A DNA stretch of 64,000 bases from [Phormidium] sp. LEGE 05292 (lineage in GTDB: Bacteria > Cyanobacteriota > Cyanobacteriia > Cyanobacteriales > Aerosakkonemataceae), in assembly GCF_015207735.1 (NCBI RefSeq), contig NZ_JADEWG010000001.1:124001-188000 (forward strand). The letters run 5' to 3'. The notes under the pieces are model-generated. The model worked only from the letters and a program-made list of their open reading frames with translations, was not told the origin of the DNA and searched no databases. The position numbers were made by a program, and so were the translations under genes. How positions within the stretch are numbered: the stretch's first letter is position 1; each line of letters opens with the position of its first letter. This document shows, one piece after another, positions 47,985-64,000 of the stretch.

Positions 47985-48014
47985 TTATTCCTGATAAGAT
48001 AAACAAATGTGCCT

Positions 48015-48101
48015 GGAGAGGTGGCAGAGTGGTCGATTGCGCTTGACTTGAAATCAAGTGTGGCAGCAATGTCACCGTGGGTTCAAATCCCACCCTCTCC
48101 G
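48015..48101 (+). tRNA. tRNA-Ser (anticodon UGA)
   Basis: 87-nt class II tRNA. Acceptor GGAGAGG pairs with CCTCTCC; D arm TGGCAGAGTGG...; anticodon stem-loop CTTGA-CTTGAAA-TCAAG with TGA as anticodon; long variable arm; T arm GTGGG-TTCAAAT-CCCAC; discriminator G. Bases 48074-48090, in the variable arm/T arm, are the protospacer of the CAST homing guide. The transposon end starts 34 bp after the gene, leaving the tRNA intact. Confidence 0.96.
48074..48090 (+). other. Homing protospacer in tRNA-Ser
   Basis: ACCGTGGGTTCAAATCC in the tRNA gene is identical to the 17-nt guide at 48285-48301. It is preceded by TGTC (48070-48073), fitting the GTN PAM known for Cas12k. From the last PAM base to the transposon end at 48136 there are 62 bp, inside the 60-66 bp window reported for V-K insertion. 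Confidence 0.9.
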
Positions 48102-48135
48102 TTGAGTTTTTTAGAGCTATTGGGATAAAGATTTT

Positions 48136-48267
48136 TGTACGTTCGCAGATTAAATGTCGCTGTTCGCAGATTAGTGTCGGGATTAGCAGACTTGTTAACT
48201 TTCTTAACACAATTCGCAAATTCATGTCGCTAATTGACACCTCCTATCTATTCGCACGTTAATGTCG
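48136..48267. repeat. Transposon end with four TnsB-binding-type repeats
   Basis: The end begins TGTACG. Repeats of consensus TTCGCA-n(2)-TTA-n-TGTCG occur at 48142-48159, 48163-48179, 48213-48229 and 48251-48267, all in the same direction, with starts 21, 50 and 38 bp apart. The GTCG/TGTCA-type word resembles the TGTCATT/TGTCGTC words of known V-K ends such as ShCAST. The second end is not in the window. Confidence 0.88.
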
Positions 48268-48284
48268 TACAAGTTAATGAGGAT

Positions 48285-48338
48285 GGATTTGAACCCACGG
48301 TCTTTCAATCTACCAACTACTTATTATTATATTTATCC
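48285..48338 (-). CRISPR. Delocalised homing crRNA unit targeting tRNA-Ser
   Basis: On the minus strand a decayed repeat ending TACGTAGTT-free half (GTTGGTAGATTGAAAG, complement of 48302-48317) is directly followed by the guide ACCGTGGGTTCAAATCC (complement of 48285-48301). The guide equals 17 nt of the adjacent tRNA-Ser gene and then diverges, so its effective length is 17 nt, as described for V-K homing guides (Saito et al. 2021). The last 13 bases of this repeat differ from the array repeat at two positions, and both changes turn G-U into A-U pairs with the tracrRNA anti-repeat. The repeat's 5' half is unrecognisable. Confidence 0.88.
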
Positions 48339-48351
48339 TCTGCGATTGTTA

Positions 48352-49276
48352 TAGTTCCAACACCCCTAGTTGGGATGGTAGTTGAAACTAGAGTGGGTAG
48401 AGCGTAGGAAAGAGAGGAATTGCACTTTCAACCCACCCCTAGTTGGGATGGTAGTTGAAACAACTGGTTTGTTTAGTAATTTGAGTGTTGGTATTAATGG
48501 CTTTCAACCCACCCCTAGTTGGGATGGTAGTTGAAACTTCAGGGAGCACAGAGGTAAGCTAGAAAAGGAAAAGCTTTCAACCCACCCCTAGTTGGGATGG
48601 TAGTTGAAACTTTGGCCCCCCTATAAACCAAAATGAGCCTTACTGTACTCTTTCAACCCACCCCTAGTTGGGATGGTAGTTGAAACGAAAACTATATAGC
48701 AGAACGATTCTCCAAAACTGCTCTTTCAACCCACCCCTAGTTGGGATGGTAGTTGAAACTTAAATTTTATGCTCCAGGCTTTATTATGAAATTATCGGAC
48801 TTTCAACCCACCCCTAGTTGGGATGGTAGTTGAAACCTCCCATATATCTTCAGAAACTTCTTTAACTAGTGCAGCTTTCAACCCACCCCTAGTTGGGATG
48901 GTAGTTGAAACATTGATCTGTATCTATTGCCTAATAGGTTTAGCTTTCAACCCACCCCTAGTTGGGATGGTAGTTGAAACCCAGCCAAGAATCCGCCTTG
49001 ACTGAGTAAATAGATTCCTTTCAACCCACCCCTAGTTGGGATGGTAGTTGAAACGAGACCGCCTTACGACATAACTGAGCCGCCTACTCTTCTTTCAACC
49101 CACCCCTAGTTGGGATGGTAGTTGAAACCGAAATTTTCATAGCTACTGATGCAGAGGTCGTCGACTTTCAACCCACCCCTAGTTGGGATGGTAGTTGAAA
49201 CAATATAACGCACTGTTGGGGTAATTTCAAAGATGTCATCTTTCAACCCACCCCTAGTTGGGATGGTAGTTGAAAC
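48352..49276 (-). CRISPR. Type V-K CRISPR array, 13 repeats and 12 spacers
   Basis: Repeats are 37 bp; on the minus strand each begins GTTTCAACTACCATCC and ends GGGGTGGGTTGAAAG, close to the known Cas12k repeat. Twelve are identical and the one at 48352-48388 has lost its last 10 bases, so it is the leader-distal end and the array reads leftward, away from cas12k. Repeat starts: 48352, 48425, 48501, 48574, 48650, 48723, 48800, 48875, 48944, 49018, 49092, 49165, 49240. Spacers are 32-40 bp, all different. Spacer targets cannot be identified from the window; none matches the tRNA gene. Confidence 0.97.
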
Positions 49277-49480
49277 AACGGCAGCTAAAACAGTTACCTG
49301 AACTAGCTTTTAGAGGCGATTTTCGTGAACCTCTAAATTTGTTGTGCTACCTCTGCCTTAAACAGAGAAGCAACCATCCCGCAAAAAGACTGTAATCCTT
49401 AACCCATAAGGGGTTCGAGGTTTTCGTAAACCTCCTGGGGATTTGACCCCCGCTTCGGTTCACGAAATAAGGAAAATTGA
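49277..49480 (-). other. Array leader between tracrRNA and CRISPR
   Basis: About 200 bp between the tracrRNA core and the first repeat, on the minus strand. It is structured: TTTCGTGAACC (near 49461-49471, minus) pairs with GGTTTACGAAA (near 49417-49427) around a GGGGGTCAAATCCCC hairpin, and a second GGTTCACGAAAA copy lies near 49322-49333. This is expected leader or tracrRNA 3' extension sequence. No ORF is credible here. Confidence 0.55.
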
Positions 49481-49481
49481 G

Positions 49482-49702
49482 GGTAGATTCCCCCTTGGTC
49501 GGGGGTGATTCAGTAGCCACTACAGCAGCATATCTGCACCCAATTTGCTGGGAGCGCACCTATCCTGTTTGTCAAAAGACAGACAGCAGCATCAGGGTGA
49601 GCAGCTACCAGGGTCAGAAAGCAAGACTGTCTTCCGACAGCCAAACTAACCCATACTTTTCACAGCTCAGAGGCTAAAAAGCATGAACTGCGGCGCTATT
49701 AA
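49482..49702 (-). ncRNA. tracrRNA of Cas12k
   Basis: Between cas12k and the array, minus strand, the sequence follows the ShCAST tracrRNA closely: TTAATAGCGCCGCAGTTCAT at its start, then GCTTTCTGACCCTGGTAGCT, CACCCTGATGCTGCTGTC, GGATAGGTGCGCTCCCAGCA, TGTAGTGGCTACTGAATCAC and the CCCCCGACCAAGGGGG hairpin. The anti-repeat is AATCTACCC (complement of 49481-49489), which pairs with GGGTGGGTT of array repeats (two G-U) and with GGTAGATT of the homing unit (all Watson-Crick). Exact ends are inferred by likeness; the ShCAST RNA is about 216 nt. Confidence 0.92.
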
Positions 49703-49749
49703 CTATTTTACTGTCAAGGTTCAGATATTTGCCAGGATTTAGCTTTATT

Positions 49750-51663
49750 TCAAGCTTTGCTTACACGAGACTGATAAGCTGAGAAGGCTAATTCTCTAGC
49801 CTTCTCTTGGACACTTACAGTACCAAGGCGTGTTTGCATCCCCACCTCAATGGAGATGCCAGCCTTTGCTGCCTGAGCCTGGATGCTTTCAATTAATCTG
49901 TTATAGCTCCACTGGTGGATATTAATCCGGTACTGTTTGGCATACAGTTTCTGAACTTCCACAAGGCCGGGATGTTTTTGCTGAGCACGGGTTTCTAGTT
50001 CAGATTGGATAATCTCCCGCATATCCTTAAGGTCGGGTAAGACGATACTGCCAGCTTGGAAGCTGATTGCGATCGCCACAATCTCTTTAGCCAATAATCG
50101 ATCTATGTACTGCCCCAACTCAGAAGCCCCAAAGTCATTGGGTGCAGAGCGTTTTTGAGCTTTATGGCGTTGGTGAGCCCCATCTTGTTGCTCAAGACGC
50201 TGACGGTTTAGCAGTGGATAATTCTCCCCAAGTAGCTGACGGACACTACGATAAGTGAGGACTGTTTGTGCGATCACATCCACTACCGCTACTGTGGCGG
50301 GTTTGTCTAACCCTAAGCTCACTCCCACCAGGATGTGAGATCTACCTTCGTAAATGGGCTGGCTAGGGCGATTAAAAGGGGTATCCATTCGCTTAAGACT
50401 GGTTTGCTTAGCCTTAGTCCTATTAGATACTTGCTGGTTCTTATTTAAATTGTCCTCTTTCTTCTTCTTAGTGAGGTAACTAGTAATCTGAGCAGCTTTC
50501 TGGGAGCGTACTTGTTCAGTTCCTTCCTTAGTCCATAGGCGAGTATCAATTGTGCAGTGAAGGGCTAAGCGATGGACTTGCCAAGGCTCCCCTTTCCCTT
50601 CCCCTTCTTGCCAAGCTAAGCGACCACTCCTTAAAGCAAACAAGGCGGTTGAATGCTGGCCTTTACTCTCACGTTTAGTCTCTTGGTCTTCCCAGAAGCG
50701 TTGAAACCAGGGTAACTGACGGCGATCGCAATACACTTCAAAGATTAGCTCTGTTAAACCAGTAAACTCAACACAGAGCCGACCTTCCTGGTTCTTTGAC
50801 CAACGTAAATCTTCGCCACCTAAGAGTACTGGAAAAGGCAGACAACTGAATTTGGTTAATAGGATATCCTGCCAACCCTTGGCCTCATGATTGTCTTGGG
50901 GGACGGTAGTAGTTGCGAGATCTAATGTCTCTAACCATCGAGTATTGGTTAATTCTCGGCCCTTTGGAACTCGACTGGCTAACTTTTCGCTAAGTCGTTC
51001 AATTTCAACCTCGACCTTACGGCGACGGAGGACGAACTTCTCTGGGTCTTCCTCTGTATCGTTAACTTTACAGCCGTTCTTGATGAGATAACAGATGGCA
51101 CACTGCCGTAGGATATCGTCTGTATTCCGATACGCCTCAAACAAGAGCTTAGATAAGTTACGGTTGGGAGCGGCAGCCTTGCTGTTACCCTGTTTTTCCT
51201 TTCCTGACTCCAATTGGAGGATAACCTCAGCTAATATTTCAGCCGCCTTAGTCCGAAGGGCATCCAAAGTGTAACCACTAGCTTCTACCAATTGGGCATC
51301 GCTTTTGAGCATTTCTAACCAGCTTCTTTTCCCATCTAGCTTATGCTGTAGTTGCTTTTGAATAGCCAACCAAGATTTGTAGATGTATTTCACTACGGAA
51401 ATAGCTGAGCTATAGAAACGGCCAGGTTGACCTGTAAAGCGAGGGTCAGTTTTGAGAGATTTGCATAGCTGGCTAACAACATCAAAATCCTTATCAGCAG
51501 GGAGTTTACCCTTTTGTCTCCAAGTCTCGAAATCAGGATGACGAGCGACTTGTTCTAGTAGTTCATTAATTAATGGCGTATTCCTTTGAACCATCAACTT
51601 CCATAGTTTCTGGCGGGTAGATTCACTGGCAACTAAGCGACACTGTATTGTAATTAAACTCAT
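49750..51663 (-). CDS. cas12k: Cas12k, RNA-guided target-binding effector of type V-K CAST
   Basis: 637 aa (ShCas12k is 639). Near-collinear with ShCas12k: ITIQCRLVASESTRQKLWKL at the N terminus, NTPLINELLEQVARHPDFE, LKTDPRFTGQPGRFY, IYKSWLAIQKQLQHKLDGK, EEDPEKFVLRRRKVEVEIER and SHILVGVSLGLDKPATVAVV. The RuvC-like domain lacks the full catalytic set, as in all Cas12k, so it binds but does not cut; it recruits TniQ, TnsC and TnsB to the target. Its start overlaps the upstream DUF262 gene by 41 bp, implying co-transcription and translational coupling. The tracrRNA follows 48 bp downstream. Confidence 0.97.
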   Translation of the reverse strand: MSLITIQCRLVASESTRQKLWKLMVQRNTPLINELLEQVARHPDFETWRQKGKLPADKDFDVVSQLCKSLKTDPRFTGQPGRFYSSAISVVKYIYKSWLAIQKQLQHKLDGKRSWLEMLKSDAQLVEASGYTLDALRTKAAEILAEVILQLESGKEKQGNSKAAAPNRNLSKLLFEAYRNTDDILRQCAICYLIKNGCKVNDTEEDPEKFVLRRRKVEVEIERLSEKLASRVPKGRELTNTRWLETLDLATTTVPQDNHEAKGWQDILLTKFSCLPFPVLLGGEDLRWSKNQEGRLCVEFTGLTELIFEVYCDRRQLPWFQRFWEDQETKRESKGQHSTALFALRSGRLAWQEGEGKGEPWQVHRLALHCTIDTRLWTKEGTEQVRSQKAAQITSYLTKKKKEDNLNKNQQVSNRTKAKQTSLKRMDTPFNRPSQPIYEGRSHILVGVSLGLDKPATVAVVDVIAQTVLTYRSVRQLLGENYPLLNRQRLEQQDGAHQRHKAQKRSAPNDFGASELGQYIDRLLAKEIVAIAISFQAGSIVLPDLKDMREIIQSELETRAQQKHPGLVEVQKLYAKQYRINIHQWSYNRLIESIQAQAAKAGISIEVGMQTRLGTVSVQEKARELAFSAYQSRVSKA

Positions 51664-53437
51664 AATTATTCTTACTTAATTCATCAGTTAAATGCTTACC
51701 CATTGCTTTACCGATTAACTCAAGTAAGGCATAGGTTCTAGCACTAAAGAAAGCATCAAAGTCGTTGGTTCTTAGAAGTCTTGGCTCTATTAAATGTGTA
51801 CGTAAGATTTGATTCAACCTTCCCTGAGAAATGCCAGATGATTCTAGTTGTTTTAGATAATCTGAAGGGGCTTTTCCACCTAATAGCCTGTTGGTATTAG
51901 CTGTAATTGGTGTCTTGTTAATAATACTGTTATAGCGTTCCCGACAAATACCTTGCTGATAGCACCACGCTTGAGGAAAGATATGATGATTCTGTATTTC
52001 TTCCTCAAAGAATCTAAGATTAATTATAGGTTGACCACAGCTAAAATCGGTCGCCCCATAGCATTTAAGTAGTGTTGATATTCCCCGGTAAGCTGCCGCA
52101 TCATGATTAGATAGTTTACGTAAACGTCTCGCTGTTAAAGTAGTATCTTTGATGCTGGAAGGAAGAGATCCACCATTGAGCCATTGGGAAACTTCTAGCA
52201 TATCTTTGGCAGCTTTTCTTTCAGGCCAACCTGTATATACTTCACCAAAAACAGCACAGTAATACCACTGCTTAAGTTGAGTTCTTACTAACTCATCCTT
52301 CAGGCGTTCTCCTAATACTGTGAGGATAGCTGCTAAAGCTACAAGCTGATTGTGGTAAGGTAGTTCACTTGCATCAAATATGGCTAGGGAATACAGAAAC
52401 TTAGCAGCTTCCTCATACCCACGACTAACTGGCTCAGCCCAAGCCTTGTACTCTGATAAGCTCAGACGCATTAGCTGTTGCCTTGTACAGCCAACTGCGG
52501 GAAGTTGGTCACAACTGTAGCCTCGATTAATCGCTTCCATTCTGTGGGTATAAGTAGCGACTAAGGTAACAGCTTGGAGGAAATCACTATTCTTTAAGAG
52601 ACGCAGCACTTTTACAGACTGGAAATGCTTCTCCTTAATCTCCCAATCTTCTTTTAGAGAAAAGCCATTAACAGCATAGGTGGCTGTCATTCTATCGAAG
52701 TAATTAGGCTCCTTAGAAGGCTCAATAATTTGGCATACTGCTTCTTTAGGTGGCTCACTTTTGGCAATGACAATGGGAAGTAAACAATGTTCAAACTTAT
52801 TAATAATTGATACTTCAAACTGCTCTATTAGTTCCCGTTTGCATGGCTTATAGTTCCAGTATTTAGAGTATTTACTCCGCCATTGGCTAAAGTTAAATAC
52901 TTGATTAATTGGGAAAAGGCCAGATTTATACTCCTGTTCAGGGGTGGAACAATCTATTAAGTATTGCCATTGACAAGATAGTGTTCTTTCTGAGTTTAGG
53001 CTAATGATGCTATCGGCTCGATCAATAGTGGGAAAATCTAGAGCCTTAGCCATGTCAATGTAATACCACTTTTGGGTAATTCTTTGACTATTACCTTGTT
53101 TAAGGCATACTGGTTGTTTGGATAAAAGTGCCATAAACAAAACTGTTAAACTTTCCTGACCCTCAAGAATTAATAGCTCTGGTTGGGGTGCCTTTGGTAG
53201 GCAAACACCGTCGATGAGTCTGGGTTTGATCTCAACATTTAGGTTCCTCTGTTCAATTAACTTGATCTCTTTGATGGGGTAGCCAAGAGACACCATCGCT
53301 AACAACTGTTTTACATATTCATCATCCCAACACTGACTGTTCTTAGGTTCGGCTTGTTGGACTATCCCTCGCTTGATATCGCAGAGGAAGTTGAACAAGG
53401 GTTCTTTGGTGAAATCAAAGCTAGAAATAGATAACAT
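51623..53437 (-). CDS. DUF262/HNH (GmrSD-like) protein overlapping cas12k
   Basis: 604 aa. The N-terminal half (about 1-250) has the DUF262 layout, with EGQESLTVLFMALL (92-105) in the place of the usual DGQQRLT nucleotide motif. The C-terminal half has an HNH/DUF1524-like nuclease: NHHIFPQAW (His484, His485) and NSIINKTPITANTNRLLGGK with the expected Asn residues, then SDYLKQLE. GmrSD enzymes cleave phage DNA with modified bases in an NTP-dependent way. The altered DGQQR motif may mean changed or lost nucleotide use. It is cargo, ending inside cas12k (41-bp overlap). Confidence 0.75.
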   Translation of the reverse strand: MLSISSFDFTKEPLFNFLCDIKRGIVQQAEPKNSQCWDDEYVKQLLAMVSLGYPIKEIKLIEQRNLNVEIKPRLIDGVCLPKAPQPELLILEGQESLTVLFMALLSKQPVCLKQGNSQRITQKWYYIDMAKALDFPTIDRADSIISLNSERTLSCQWQYLIDCSTPEQEYKSGLFPINQVFNFSQWRSKYSKYWNYKPCKRELIEQFEVSIINKFEHCLLPIVIAKSEPPKEAVCQIIEPSKEPNYFDRMTATYAVNGFSLKEDWEIKEKHFQSVKVLRLLKNSDFLQAVTLVATYTHRMEAINRGYSCDQLPAVGCTRQQLMRLSLSEYKAWAEPVSRGYEEAAKFLYSLAIFDASELPYHNQLVALAAILTVLGERLKDELVRTQLKQWYYCAVFGEVYTGWPERKAAKDMLEVSQWLNGGSLPSSIKDTTLTARRLRKLSNHDAAAYRGISTLLKCYGATDFSCGQPIINLRFFEEEIQNHHIFPQAWCYQQGICRERYNSIINKTPITANTNRLLGGKAPSDYLKQLESSGISQGRLNQILRTHLIEPRLLRTNDFDAFFSARTYALLELIGKAMGKHLTDELSKNNYEFNYNTVSLSCQ

Positions 53438-54468: not shown

Positions 54469-57409
54469 CTAGGCATCTTCTGCCTCTCCCTGATTTTCCT
54501 CTTTTAGCTTGTCGATATATAGCTCGAACATCCACCTGAATAGAGCAGTTTCAAAGTCTTTATTTATCTTAATTTTGGGATAAAAGTCTTGAAAGTTAGG
54601 ACTATTTTCCCTGAATAAAGCTATTATTTGCTTCTGCGCTGTTTCATAGAAGGTTGTTTGGGCTTTTTCAGCGTTGACTTGTACCTTTTGCTTTAGCTGT
54701 ACATCTTGAGATAATCTTTTTGTTACTGTCTCAACGCAGACTTTATCGGCATCAGTTAAATTAACGCCGTAGCGATTGTTAAACTCTTGAATAACTTGGG
54801 AAAGAGGAACCTCTACCTTAACTGTTGGAGTACCATAACCTTTGATTTCAGGGGCTTGCAGTAACGTTTGTGCGATGTTATCCAGTTTTATGGTACCGCT
54901 AAAGGTTTGTTGAATTCGATAGGCTTCTAATTCTATTCCTTGGGGAAGCGTAAAGGGAGATTCTTGGTGAGATGGTTGTATCTTTGTTAGGAGTAAGTGA
55001 CCTAAGCTGTAGAGTTTTTCTAAATCTACATCAGTAAATTTAACAATTTGAGATAGATAGAGATAGAGGCGAACATATTCGGTGAGAAGCTCTCTAAAGC
55101 GGTTTTGGTCGTCTTCTTCTGCTTCGTCAAAGCGTTCAACTACAGGAGAAATTGCAGCTTCTAATTGGTCTACGGCTTGGGGATTTCTAAAGTAAATATT
55201 GGTAACATTTTCAAGTTCTGACGTATCATAAAATCCAAACTGTTTAAGCTTTCGTTCCAGGTTGTAGAGGCGGTCGGGGTCTGTACCTTGGCTAAGAGAG
55301 GTGGCGGTGTAGTAGCGTTGAAAGGCATTTTTGATAGTCTGCCAGTCATTGATAAAATCCAGCACCATTGTCTCGTTCTTGCCGGAATGGCAACGGTTGA
55401 GGCGGCTAAGGGTTTGCACGGCTTTGATGTCTTTGAGCGGTTTATCCACATACATGGTGTGCAGTAGGGGTTGGTCGAAGCCTGTTTGGAATTTGTCAGC
55501 GACAATGAGAATGCGGTACTCATCCTTTCTAAAGGCTTCGGCTATGTCGTGGATGTTTTCTCCAGCACTGGCAGTATTCATGCTGTATTCAGTGTATTTG
55601 ATTCCGTTGAGAGTTACCGTTTGGGAGAAAGCAACTAGGGTCTTGAAAGTGTATCCTTTCTCCTGAATGTAAGCGTCTACCACTTGTTTGTAGCGTACTG
55701 CTTGAGGGCGGGAACTGGTAACGATCATCGCTTTGGCTTTACCGTTGATACGCTGTTGAACGCGATCGCAAAAATGCTCTACTATAACTTCAACTTTCTC
55801 TCTAATCGCCTCTTCCTTGAGATTGACGAATTTGTGAAGAGCACGGGCAAGTTGTCCAGTAGTGCAATGTGGGTCTTCGGTGGTCGCTTGTAGCAGACGA
55901 TAGTACTGCTCATAGGTGGTATAGTTTTGCAGCACATCGAGGATAAAGCCTTCTTCAATAGCTTGGCGCATTGAGTATAAATGGAAAGGGTTATAATTCC
56001 CCTCCGGTTGAGGTTCGCCGAATAGTTCTAGAGTTGTATCCTTAGGGGTGGCGGTGAAGGCAAAATAACTGAGGTTGTTAAGCCTGCCGCGTTTCTTGGT
56101 TTCCCTCACGATAAAGTCTTCGTCATCTTCCTCGACATCGGCTAAGACGGCATTCATACTTCTGGTGGTTTTGCCGCCTTGGGAGGAGTGCGCTTCGTCG
56201 ATGAGGACGGCAAAGCGTTTGTTTAGCATTTGGCTGGTTAGCCGCAGCACTTGAGGAAATAAAAACAAGCTACAAACAATCACCTGTTTGCCGTCTTGGA
56301 GGGCTTGTTTGAGTTCTGCACCAGTTGGGGGAGTGGCGACTGTACCGCGCACCTGTTCAAATTGCTGAATATTGTCTTGGAGTTGTTTGTTAACGATGTT
56401 GCGATCGCTGAATTACAATAATGGAGTTAAAAACCCTTTGGTCATTGGGGTCAAAGAGATTCTTGAGTTGATGAGAAAGCCAAGCAATGGTGTTACTTTT
56501 GCCGCTACCAGCACTGTGCTGAATCAGGTAGCGTTGTCCTACACCTTTAGCTAGGGCATCGGCTAGGAGTTTCCGTACTGCGTCAAGTTGATGGTAGCGG
56601 GGGAAAATCAGGCGCTTTTCGGGGGTTAACTGGATGAAGTTTTTAATGAGGTTAAGAACACTGTCAGGTTGCCAAATTTCTTCCCACAGGTAAGCAGTAC
56701 GACAGCTTGTAGGATGGGGAGGATTGCCTTTACCTTGTTTATGGCCTTTATTAAAGGGTAAAAACTTAGTTTTACTGTCCTGTAAGTGAGTAGTTATTTC
56801 CACTTCGTCTGGGGCAATGGCAAAGTGGCATAGACAGCGACCTAAGGTAAAGAGAGGTTCTGTAGAATCCCGTTGTTTGCAATATTCCTCTTTAGCATCT
56901 TGAATGTCTTGCCAGGTGAAGTTATTTTTCAATTCGGCAGTAAAAATGGGTATACCGTTTAAGAATATTCCCCAGTCTAAGCTATGGTTTGGAGTCTTTT
57001 TGCTGTAGTGGAATTGGCGCAGTATGGTAAAGCTATTTTGCTCGTACAGGGTTTGTAGTTCTGGGTTGCGGCTGCTGTTAGGTTGAAAGTAAACGAGTTT
57101 GAAGGTACAGCCATAGGTTTTAATACCGTTTCGCAGGACATCCAGGGTGCCTCGGCTGGTAATTTCGCTGGCTAAATAGTTGAGGAATTTGGTTTCTGTA
57201 GCGTCGCCATGATGTTGTTTGAGTTGTTCCCATATTTCTGCCTGGGTTCTCTGGATAAACTGGATTACGTCTTTAGGGATTAGGCAACGGGCTGTATCGT
57301 AGGTTTGAGTGCGTTTCTCGTCATCGTAGGTTTGAGTGCGTTTCTCGTAACCTCTATTTATCAGGCTTTGTTCGATGATGGCTTCTAAGTCTTTTTCTAA
57401 GGGAGTCAT
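54469..57409 (-). pseudogene. hsdR: Type I restriction enzyme subunit HsdR, frameshifted
   Basis: Two adjoining frames make one HsdR of about 970 aa. The first (57409-56390) has the nuclease motif IFTAELKNNFTWQD (PD-(D/E)XK), FPRYHQLDAVRKLL and the Walker A HSAGSGKSNTIAWL, then ends SIIVIQRSQHR stop. The second (to 54469) continues in the +1 frame with DRNIVNKQLQDNIQQFEQVR, then LIDEAHSSQGG (DEAH), SYFAFTATPKDTTLELFGEP and the helicase C motifs. The break sits at or beside the GCGATCGC octamer 56401-56408, where one extra base accounts for it. HsdR is the translocating and cleaving motor of type I systems. A sequencing error is possible. Confidence 0.85.
57298..57348. repeat. 27-bp tandem duplication inside hsdR
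   Basis: CGTAGGTTTGAGTGCGTTTC at 57298 recurs at 57325 with period 27 (24 bp identical). It is in frame and inserts nine residues near the HsdR N terminus, giving EKRTQTYDDEKRTQTYD. A recent duplication. Confidence 0.9.
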
Positions 57410-57429
57410 AGAGATTTTGGATTACAGGT

Positions 57430-58749
57430 TTAATCTGATAGTTCGGATACATCTATTTTTCCCGTGACAGCAGCAGAGATTAACGCGGTTCGGTATTCTT
57501 TTAGCTTTTCTATACCTTCGCGGATTTTGGCGATGAGGGCATCTATCTTGGCGGTTTCGCGGTCGAGGTAAGATGCGATCGCTACTTGCTCATCAAATGG
57601 AGGAACAGACAGAGGAACTCTGGCAAGAATCGTAGTGTTCAAGTTATCCATAGTTGCACCTACAGATTCAAGCAATAGCCAGTCACGAACTCCACTGGTA
57701 GACAGTATCCAATTCAAGAACTGGGGATAAGCTACATCGCGTTTTAGCCTCATTCGTAAGCTTCCAGTTCCATGCCCGTCACTAATCCGAGGTAATCCCG
57801 CATCAAAACGCCCCCCAGCCTTCTTCTCAGCTTCCACTGCTTTCTTATCCCCTTCCCATTTTTTGCCATAAGGAGGATTCGCCAACATATAGTCAAAGCT
57901 TCCCTGGTGCTGAGGGTTTGCCAGCGTAGTGCCAAACATAATCTGTTCGGCATCCCTACCGTCAGCACTGAGGATATACAAATCAGACTTGCAGACTGCA
58001 TAAGTTTCTGGGTTCACCTCCTGTCCAAACAATCGCACCGTAGCAGTGGGGTTCATCGCTTCAATCCACTTTTTCGCAGAAATCAGCATCCCGCCCGTAC
58101 CGCAGCAGGGGTCATAAACCGTCAGCTCAATATACTCTTGAGTTAGCGCTTGCTCATCCAGACACATCAACAGACTTACCATCAACCGAACTACATCTGG
58201 CGGCGTGAAGTGTTCCCCTGGATTCTCATTGAGTGCCTCATTAAACTTCCGAATCAACTCCTGGAAAATGTCCCCCATTTCCTGGTTAGAAACACGGTCA
58301 GGATGCAAGTCAATTTCATTACTCTTAAACCGCTCCATGACCAGGAAAAGCAATCCCGATTCATCTAACCGTTTAATCGTGTTCCGAAAATCAAACTTCT
58401 CCAGAACATCTCGCATATTTTTACTAAAGCCATTAATATAATCCTTGAGATTAGCCGCTAAGTTATCTGGGTCTTCTAATAACGATTCAAATGTATATTT
58501 TGAAGTATTGTAAAAGGCGTATCCCGATATGTCCCTGAGCATATCGTCCAAAGCATCCTCTGGCAACGAATCCTTTAATTGTTGGTACTCTTCCAGTACT
58601 TGCTTTTTAGTCTGTTCTAGTACGTAATCAATCCGCCGCAGCACCGTAAATGGCAAAATTACATCCCGGTACTTACCGCGATTGAACGTATCCCGAATCA
58701 AATTCGCGATACCAAAGATGAAATTAGCCTTCTCACCAAAGTTATTCAT
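57430..58749 (-). CDS. Type I HsdM N-terminal part fused to HsdS C-terminal part
   Basis: 439 aa. Residues 1-325 are the N-terminal domain and methyltransferase core of HsdM: NFIFGIANLIRDTFNRGKYR, motif I DPCCGTGGM, NPPYGKKW (catalytic NPPY) and GRFDAGLPRISDG. Normal HsdM continues another 150-200 aa. Here residues 326-439 instead match the end of an HsdS specificity subunit (GTTILARVPLSVPPFDEQV-like, DRETAKIDALIAKIREGIEK, YRTALISAAVTGKIDV). A deletion that joined the two genes in frame near 57775 would explain it. The DNA-recognition domain TRD1 and most of TRD2 are lost, so it should not methylate specifically. Confidence 0.8.
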   Translation of the reverse strand: MNNFGEKANFIFGIANLIRDTFNRGKYRDVILPFTVLRRIDYVLEQTKKQVLEEYQQLKDSLPEDALDDMLRDISGYAFYNTSKYTFESLLEDPDNLAANLKDYINGFSKNMRDVLEKFDFRNTIKRLDESGLLFLVMERFKSNEIDLHPDRVSNQEMGDIFQELIRKFNEALNENPGEHFTPPDVVRLMVSLLMCLDEQALTQEYIELTVYDPCCGTGGMLISAKKWIEAMNPTATVRLFGQEVNPETYAVCKSDLYILSADGRDAEQIMFGTTLANPQHQGSFDYMLANPPYGKKWEGDKKAVEAEKKAGGRFDAGLPRISDGHGTGSLRMRLKRDVAYPQFLNWILSTSGVRDWLLLESVGATMDNLNTTILARVPLSVPPFDEQVAIASYLDRETAKIDALIAKIREGIEKLKEYRTALISAAVTGKIDVSELSD

Positions 58750-58949: not shown

Positions 58950-59474
58950 CTAAGCAGCTTTGGGGTTCCTGCTACGTTCAGCTTTAGCTTTATTTCTAAA
59001 CTCTCCAAAGTCAATTACTGTAGAGTTCTCAGCAGCATCCCATATATCGTCTACTACTTCTTGAAATGCAGGTAAGACAAGCAGTGTATATTGACCAATA
59101 CCTTTACCACGCTTGTCTCCCACCTTTAATGCAGAGATTTGACAGCCTAAATCCGACCAATCTTCTTTTATCCAAAAGACCTCATCACCTGCCACGACAA
59201 TCCTTTTGTCTCTTAAACTCCCATCTATATTGCACTTGTCAAAGTATTCTAAGACTCTGCGGATCATCTGGAGGGAGGTATTCTCCCGTAGGTCTCGAAT
59301 AGCTTTGATATCTAAAAGCTGTTCCCAAGTGTAATAGACTTCAGGTTTCTTCTTCCCATTCCATATTCTCTCTGGCACGACCAATCCAGCACGCTCAAGA
59401 GATTGTAACTGATTGGAGGTCGCCCCAGTCAGTTCCATTATCTCTTTTCTACTGAACCGATCGATCACAGACAT
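58950..59474 (-). CDS. MerR-type regulator, CvkR candidate
   Basis: 174 aa. An N-terminal MerR winged helix (FSRKEIMELTGATSNQLQSL, then RIWNGKKKPEVYYTWEQLLD and AIRDLRENTSLQMIRRVLEY) is followed by a C-terminal region (about 90-174) without MerR metal-sensing cysteines. V-K CASTs commonly encode such a MerR-type repressor of cas12k and tracrRNA (CvkR). In known elements it lies near cas12k; here it is 7.3 kb away in the cargo, divergent from the YjzC-like gene, so the assignment is likely but unproven. Confidence 0.7.
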   Translation of the reverse strand: MSVIDRFSRKEIMELTGATSNQLQSLERAGLVVPERIWNGKKKPEVYYTWEQLLDIKAIRDLRENTSLQMIRRVLEYFDKCNIDGSLRDKRIVVAGDEVFWIKEDWSDLGCQISALKVGDKRGKGIGQYTLLVLPAFQEVVDDIWDAAENSTVIDFGEFRNKAKAERSRNPKAA

Positions 59475-62123: not shown

Positions 62124-62381
62124 TATAGTCTCCTTTTGTTTCAAATTCTGGTTGACATAATTTCAAATCAGCGGTATGCCAAAAGGTTGCTTATATGCCT
62201 ACAATGCCTTACAATAGAAGACAGAAAAGCATACAAAGTTTTTACCGCAGTAATTAGGATGACTGGGGTAAGGTTTTTGTGCATTTGGTCTACCGCTTTG
62301 CGAGTAGGTAATTAAGGGTAATGGGAACTAAATCCCCGAACTCTTAAACATTTAGTTCAAAACCTCCAAAGAGTAATGTTG

Positions 62382-62469
62382 TGGAAGTGGTGGGACTCGA
62401 ACCCACAAAACCCGGGCAAGGTTTGACCGATTAGGAGTCGGATGCGTTTACCAGTTCCGCCACACTTCC
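62382..62469 (-). tRNA. Leucine-type class II tRNA with anticodon CCU
   Basis: 88 nt. Acceptor GGAAGTG pairs with CACTTCC, discriminator A. The D arm GCGGAACTGGTAAACGC is of leucine type; anticodon stem TCCGA/TCGGT (one U-U at the top) with loop CTCCTAA, anticodon CCT; long variable arm (CAAACC/GGTTTTG); T arm GTGGG-TTCGAGT-CCCAC. A CCU anticodon decodes AGG, normally arginine, whereas arginine tRNAs have a short variable arm. It lies in the cargo, so it is a mobile-element tRNA gene. Intron and CCA are not encoded. Confidence 0.85.
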
Positions 62470-63366: not shown

Positions 63367-63648
63367 ATGGCTTAGTCTAAAAAAGGCTTCCAAGAGGTTG
63401 ATAACTTACTAAGGCAGCAGAGTGAGCTTCTTAATCACAAGTACTATGGCTGGAAGAGCAATGGGTCTGTGACAGAAGCCATCTGGGTCAGGTGCACTAG
63501 CGACATTAAGTACCGAGAGATAAAAGATCACCAAGATCAGACCCATCCCATGAGACTGATCGTATCCTTGGGCTTTGATGAAGTATCCCATCTAGATACC
63601 GATCGCATCACTAAACAATCGGCTTCTGGTACCTCGCCATCTCCTTGA
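63367..63648 (+). pseudogene. Small gene with a nonsense codon at position 3
   Basis: From ATG 63367 the frame reads M-A-stop(TAG)-SKKGFQEVDNLLRQQSEL, then about 60 codons of protein-like sequence (YYGWKSNGSVTEAIWVRCTS, KYREIKDHQDQTHPMRLIVS) to the TGA at 63646, opposing the end of tniQ. The TAG could be one C-to-T change from CAG. The part after about 63610 is antisense to tniQ. A broken small cargo gene is likely, but coding status is not proven. Confidence 0.35.
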
Positions 63649-64000
63649 ACTCCATACGGCACCGTTGGCAAACCCCTTCCTCCCACAAAGCAGGGATATC
63701 AAACTTTTTGTCACAGTTAGGACACTTAGAGAGTAAACGCAATTGGTGGCGATCGCACCCTGCCGTTGTCTTGAACTGCCACTCCATTTGATGGCAGGGA
63801 GCCTCTGCATAACAAGCCCCACACAAACGTATAGACCAACGCCACATCCCAACACCCTTGGGCGGCAGCATCTTATATAAACTGCCAACATCAACGTTAA
63901 TAAGCTTGCTTAGTGCTGCCAATTCCTCTTCTCTTGGGAAAGGATTAAAATATAACTTTTCCCATCTGGCAATTACTGCTGGAATACCGACAAGTGTCCC
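63611..64000 (-). CDS. tniQ: TniQ of the V-K CAST, C-terminal part (cut by the window)
   Basis: 130 visible codons, running off the window edge; ShTniQ is 167 aa, so about 35 residues are missing upstream. The reading GTLVGIPAVIARWEKLYFNP, then MLPPKGVGM, RLCGACYAEAPCHQMEWQFK, CDRHQLRLLSKCPNCDKKF and IPALWEEGVCQRCRMEF follow ShTniQ closely, including its Cys/His zinc-binding set (C-GAC-Y, CDRH, CPNC, CQRC). TniQ bridges the Cas12k-RNA complex to the TnsC filament. The TTG-initiated 103-aa reading inside is not the real start. Confidence 0.95.
   Translation of the reverse strand, partial: GTLVGIPAVIARWEKLYFNPFPREEELAALSKLINVDVGSLYKMLPPKGVGMWRWSIRLCGACYAEAPCHQMEWQFKTTAGCDRHQLRLLSKCPNCDKKFDIPALWEEGVCQRCRMEFKEMARYQKPIV

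Follow-up and report, generated by a model that had tools for sequence, protein, structure and literature searches.

A 17-nt guide matching the adjacent tRNA-Ser(UGA) gene in a type V-K CAST of [Phormidium] sp. LEGE 05292, with hints that the site was used repeatedly

Background

The homing-guide mechanism of type V-K CASTs is already published, as the "anchor spacer" of PMC9938897 and as the truncated repeat-spacer unit of PMC11406308, in the passages of both papers that concern attachment. The former, a survey of 118 cyanobacterial systems, describes there a truncated repeat (R*) followed by an anchor spacer, usually of 17 nt, whose protospacer usually lies in a tRNA gene; the PAM is GTN and stands 46-82 nt from the left end, with one exception. 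PMC11406308 states in its corresponding passages that, in nearly all cases, the att site is served by a truncated, separate crRNA, citing Hsieh and Peters 2021 among others, and the delocalized homing crRNA of Saito et al. 2021 (Cell) is cited in PMC10949235 and listed in PMC10293859. As rendered by these citing texts, Saito et al. and Hsieh and Peters (bioRxiv) give the mechanism, in which a separate truncated crRNA serves the tRNA att site and the other crRNAs serve the other pathway; the present element appears to use the same mechanism and adds one more natural case. ShCAST of Scytonema hofmanni likewise has, according to PMC10949235, a 17-bp tRNA-matching motif with a CRISPR direct repeat upstream, although that motif matches tRNA-Leu and the guide described here matches tRNA-Ser(UGA).

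What is added here is confined to the tRNA-Ser(UGA) target and to signs that this site has been used repeatedly. The locus offers a clean natural guide-target pair at a tRNA-Ser gene, together with its PAM, its spacing, both ends and apparently empty sites in relatives. Pairs of this kind are of value since, in the relevant passages of PMC11406308, the att-site crRNA explains nearly all natural V-K insertions, whereas there is otherwise much off-site insertion, for reasons that are unknown.

A type V-K element beside tRNA-Ser(UGA)

The window, that is the whole stretch of DNA analysed, comprises 64,000 nt of [Phormidium] sp. LEGE 05292 (GCF_015207735.1, NZ_JADEWG010000001.1:124,001-188,000, which is G000:C123:124001-188000 in our numbering of genomes and contigs); the host assembly (G000) amounts to 7.5 Mb in 351 contigs. 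The element at tRNA-Ser(UGA) is a type V-K CAST, and the window holds its left part. Its features are as follows, in window coordinates unless the contig is named:

48014..48102, plus strand: tRNA-Ser(UGA), the gene that serves as attachment site, oriented towards the transposon (ARAGORN, tRNA-Ser(TGA); Rfam RF00005)
48070..48073, plus strand: PAM TGTC, with the GTN portion GTC at 48071-48073 (from the sequence)
48074..48090, plus strand: 17-nt protospacer ACCGTGGGTTCAAATCC in the T-arm region of tRNA-Ser (sequence, repeat search)
48136..48174, plus strand: left end of the transposon, whose terminal 39 bases recur inverted as the right end at C123:191134 (window-equivalent 67134, beyond the window)
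48285..48301, minus strand: probable 17-nt homing guide, or anchor spacer (sequence, repeat search, cross-locus scan)
48302..48314, minus strand: truncated repeat R*, GGTAGATTGAAAG (sequence)
48351..48387, minus strand: decayed last array repeat (repeat search and script)
48425..49276, minus strand: CRISPR array with 12 intact 37-nt repeats (Rfam RF01329, 12 matches; repeat finder)
49277..49749, minus strand: presumed tracrRNA gene in the gap between array and cas12k (by position only, after the layout given in PMC9938897)
49750..51663, minus strand: cas12k, 637 aa (NCBIfam NF038191, 912 bits, cut-off 150)
63611..64000, continuing past the window end, minus strand: tniQ, 172 aa (Pfam TniQ)
C123:188158-189006, beyond the window, same strand as tniQ: tnsC-like gene (Pfam TniB/AAA_22)
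C123:189011-190870, beyond the window, same strand as tniQ: tnsB-like gene (Pfam Mu-transpos_C)

The terminal sequence TGTACGTTCGCAG..., which starts at 48136, recurs as an exact 21-mer in inverted orientation at C123:191114-191134. Since this 21-mer sits at C123:172136 and, inverted, ends at 191134, the CAST measures 18,999 bp from end to end; with up to three mismatches, the 21-mer is found at one further place only in the host assembly, on C147 (three mismatches). Over their outermost 39 bases (TGTACG...) the two ends do not differ, and these matching inverted ends bound the genes. A pattern scan for TTCGC...GTCG-type sites found four within the outer 200 nt of the left end and two within the outer 300 nt of the right end. 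Read inward from the right end, the Pfam matches give a tnsB-like gene, a tnsC-like gene and tniQ on one strand, and no Pfam match to TnsA was obtained among the ORFs searched, which were part of the element's ORFs. The type V-K identity proposed in the sequence-only reading is thus borne out by Cas12k, TniQ, TnsC-like and TnsB-like genes lying between 39-nt identical inverted ends.

The CRISPR array adjoins the tRNA-side end, the same arrangement as in the V-K layout of PMC9938897, and its repeat reads towards the left end on the minus strand. In the passages of that survey that we draw on, the tRNA gene usually points at the left end and the array reads towards it, as here; the truncated repeat (~12 nt there), the 17-nt tRNA-matching spacer and the GTN PAM are also shared, and the PAM-to-end distance of 62 nt falls within the 46-82 nt given. 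The present element differs from the systems described there in targeting tRNA-Ser(UGA) and in being without a target-site duplication. The presumed tracrRNA region (49277..49749) gave no Rfam match.

The guide and its target

The guide, read on the minus strand from 48301 to 48285, equals the protospacer at 48074-48090 in 17 of 17 bases, and the repeat finder reports the two as a 100% inverted repeat. It is directly preceded by R*, which by hand count agrees in 11 of 13 bases with the array repeat at its 3' end (GGTGGGTTGAAAG), and the whole unit lies outside the array. These observations agree with the sequence-only reading, which had claimed a 17-nt guide equal to tRNA-Ser sequence, placed outside the array behind a degenerate repeat, with a GTN-type PAM and a spacing of 62 nt; the distance from PAM to transposon end is indeed 62 nt (48074-48135).

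In all likelihood, the truncated repeat-spacer unit is the homing guide of the element to tRNA-Ser(UGA). By analogy with published work on transcription, loading and insertion, the unit, which lies between the array and the left end, would yield a short crRNA with which Cas12k is loaded; the crRNA-Cas12k complex would bind the T-arm region of tRNA-Ser(UGA) beside the GTC PAM, and TniQ, TnsC and TnsB would then insert the element ~60 nt downstream, just past the tRNA. The array spacers, judging from the literature, are presumably for other targets.

A very unlikely alternative is that the 17-mer is a chance match or a captured tRNA fragment with no guide role, the element having reached the tRNA by other means. 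T-arm-like sequence is indeed common, and the 17-mer with up to three mismatches occurs at 22 places in the assembly (both copies counted), 13 of them in called tRNAs. However, the exact 17-mer occurs at only two places in the 7.5-Mb assembly, guide and target, and among the 22 places the only one besides the target to have a GTN PAM is in tRNA-Ser(CGA) (CGTC), with a mismatch at position 2. The guide consequently fits tRNA-Ser(UGA) best, and this tRNA alone without mismatch; PAM and spacing both fit, and the full fit in the host genome is to tRNA-Ser(UGA) only.

Pairing between R* and the presumed tracrRNA region was also considered and was set aside as uninformative, since R* pairs no better than its shuffled versions: the best duplex has -11.4 kcal/mol against a shuffle mean of -11.5 (sd 2.0, n=200), the shuffles being scanned at a coarser step than R*.

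Guides and adjacent tRNA genes at other Cas12k loci

We scanned 83 loci, consisting of 40 from public contigs, 40 regions from genomes of the phylum, and the window, L006 and L007. A Cas12k match is present in 45 of 386 phylum genomes, above the cut-off in 37; shorter fragments, G048 and G072 were left out of the 40 regions taken from them, the last two having contigs as long as those of L074 and L072. To be eligible, a locus had to include the C-terminal end of Cas12k with 1.2 kb or more of downstream sequence; 70 of the 83 loci did, and a convergent tRNA lies within 3.6 kb in 55 of these 70. At each locus the best 17-mer after a TTGAAAN motif (at most one mismatch) was compared with the adjacent tRNA beside a GTN PAM.

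The guide matches its own adjacent tRNA at 17/17 in 29 of the 55 loci, at 16/17 in 22 and at 15/17 in one, which makes 52 loci at 15/17 or better; the three loci with an adjacent tRNA and no such guide are L098 (none), L141 (11) and L142 (13). When guides were compared with tRNAs of loci with other anticodons, with motif and PAM imposed in the real and control comparisons alike, none of 2,768 comparisons reached 15/17, the maximum being 14/17 (seven cases), and 47 of them scored 0. The scan itself required the GTN PAM and the TTGAAA-like motif, so finding them at the 52 loci is not independent evidence; the base after TTGAAA, which was left free, is G in 52 of 52. Some loci are near relatives, and we therefore counted distinct guides: the 52 loci hold 33, directed at 21 tRNA types, and tRNA-Ser(UGA) is the target of one of the 33 distinct guide/target pairs, that of the present element. 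Past the 17th base, identity falls to 0.24-0.42 per position (positions 18-25), so the guide ends at 17.

These data bear directly on the possibility of a chance or captured tRNA fragment. The 17-mer of the window directly follows a TTGAAAG repeat end, as at 52 of the 55 comparable loci, the guides of those loci match their own tRNA and not others, and the match stops at 17 in distinct guide/target pairs, all of which argue against that possibility and for the homing guide. Since the guide of the present element matches the neighbouring tRNA, it explains where the element landed; this account of its location, and the resemblance to reported homing guides noted in the sequence-only reading, are both supported.

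It is extremely unlikely that homing was instead driven by a protein selector of the TnsD kind, as in the I-B2 and I-D CASTs found at tRNA genes, with the guide as a leftover. TnsD is used at tRNA genes by other CAST types, according to the passages of PMC10293859 and PMC11406308 on target selection, but the sole TniQ-family protein found here, with part of the element's ORFs searched, is the small 172-aa TniQ; moreover, V-K CASTs are described in those passages of PMC11406308 as being without an additional TniQ/TnsD protein, and agreement between guide and tRNA across loci would be unexpected under protein selection.

A convergent tRNA within 3.6 kb is absent in 15 of the 70 eligible loci. 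In seven of these (L085, L133, L137, L140, L143, L163 and L166) the R* guide agrees with one or another tRNA of the set in 16 or 17 of 17 bases, in a comparison that is uncontrolled, and the other eight have no guide of at least 15/17 to any tRNA of the set. In the tRNA-less loci L067, L070 and L147, a motif-led match of 14-23 nt leads to a downstream place outside called tRNAs.

Exactly one mismatch to the own tRNA is seen in 16 of the 33 distinct guides. Position 15 holds 6 of the 18 mismatches (simulated p ~0.007 for any one position, kinship ignored).

The tRNA-Ser site in relatives

The left flank together with the tRNA, used as a query, found a match in 148 of 148 genomes searched, many over the tRNA part only. 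The string of R* plus guide, searched with up to three mismatches in 386 cyanobacterial genomes, is exact in its own genome only; the other matches are eight in six genomes, with two or three mismatches, most of which we take, from their letters, for tRNA sequence.

The prediction about the attachment site in other strains holds in part. Among ten family genomes, the host included, seven carry the GTC-ACCGTGGGTTCAAATCC protospacer at the UGA locus, and in four of these seven a V-K-like end follows, at 62 nt from the PAM in the window, 59 in G386 (a congener), 53 in G389 and 45 in G390, the last just outside the 46-82 nt given in PMC9938897. The other three with the protospacer (G393, G391 and G387) show no V-K-like end at 45-62 nt, and G392, G388 and G394 have a different sequence at the site, with no such end in the 330 nt read. 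If a site is called empty when it has no TGTAC end 14-44 nt past the tRNA and on reading of 330 nt, tRNA-Ser(UGA) is apparently empty in three relatives, the kind of site that the sequence-only reading proposed to look for, although a complete empty site across both flanks was not shown. The 3.5-kb right flank had no match in 29 relative loci, a weak test given that these span only ~1.5 kb beyond the tRNA.

As the genomes of G386, G389 and G390 gave no Cas12k match in a genome search, we regard their ends as remnants. The relic in G389 shares the TGTACGTTCGC end and includes one CRISPR repeat as well as sequence resembling the window's region beside the array; an inverted tRNA 12-mer is absent within 3 kb of the relics in all three genomes. 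The pattern of a tRNA followed by an end was found at 10 places in 8 of 388 genomes (388 being the genomes searched, not a tally of carriers of the tRNA pattern), and at none in a reversed-pattern control; ends were assessed visually, and the counts are small. Four candidates were dropped from the relic count: G470 and G530 have ends unlike V-K, and G145 and G119 have V-K-like ends with no GTN PAM at the protospacer, and therefore presumably used another guide.

In the host, tRNA-Ser(CGA) (L231/L010, C338:4066-4129) is followed by a V-K-like end at exactly 62 nt from its GTC PAM; the guide of the window differs from this tRNA by one mismatch (position 2). The tRNA-Ser(CGA) of G390 likewise has a V-K-like end, 60 nt from the PAM.

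Possible serial insertion at one attachment site

V-K insertion usually leaves a 5-bp target-site duplication, a trace that is not defining. None is present here, the 5 nt outside the ends being ATTTT (left) and TTTGT (right); this does not exclude V-K membership, because duplications decay and because a V-K-like end forms the right flank. Two nucleotides past the right end, at L005:3137-3180 (C123:191137 onward; window-equivalent 67137), stands TGTACAATGACAATTTGTTTGTC (TGTACAATGACAATTTG...), which resembles a second V-K end. On the simplest reading, an older V-K element was already present at a similar distance from the tRNA, the present element would have inserted into or next to its end, and a few bases would later have been lost. 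An older V-K-like end abutting the element suggests repeated use of one att site.

Clusters of Cas12k matches occur elsewhere, with three (one a fragment) within 34 kb in G382 and two within 13 kb in G143. The homing guides of the G382 cluster (L149, L137 and L143) match one tRNA-Ala(CGC) sequence and those of the G143 cluster (L134 and L133) one tRNA-Pro(CGG) sequence; in both genomes the R* guides of the distal Cas12k copies match, at 17/17, the tRNA sequence beside the proximal copy.

From the sequences compared, the tRNA-Ser site has likely been used repeatedly by V-K elements. Given the abutting older end, the CGA end at 62 nt, the relics at 45-60 nt and the Cas12k clusters, we lean slightly towards a broader reading, in which the tRNA-Ser T-arm is a recurring V-K landing site in Aerosakkonemataceae where unlike elements arrive serially at similar distance, newcomers settling on the tRNA side of the older element, so that a queue forms with little exclusion. 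If unlike elements do use one site repeatedly, exclusion between V-K elements would become testable.

Cargo and further Cas12k genes

Within the transposon, a tRNA-Arg(CCT) gene is carried as cargo at 62381-62469 (minus strand), and a 604-aa ORF at 51623-53437 (minus strand), which overlaps the start of cas12k by 41 nt, matched nothing in Pfam or NCBIfam at E 0.001. The MerR-family protein gene at 58950-59474 (minus strand) is far from cas12k, unlike the regulator that PMC9938897, in its description of the layout, places next to cas12k; the protein could be a CAST regulator or unrelated.

The host genome has two further Cas12k genes, on C292 and C212. The contig of the latter is 3.9 kb long and stops ~200 nt after the gene; no array is visible there. 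The former belongs to a second CAST (L007), whose guide matches the adjacent tRNA-Ala(GGC) at 16/17 beside the PAM GGTA.

A type I restriction-modification cargo occupies 54469-58749 (minus strand) of the window, with an HsdM-like ORF that includes a specificity domain (57430-58749, minus strand) and HsdR matches in two neighbouring ORFs (56390-57409 and 54469-56352, minus strand); a 26-nt direct repeat lies within this region at 57296-57348.
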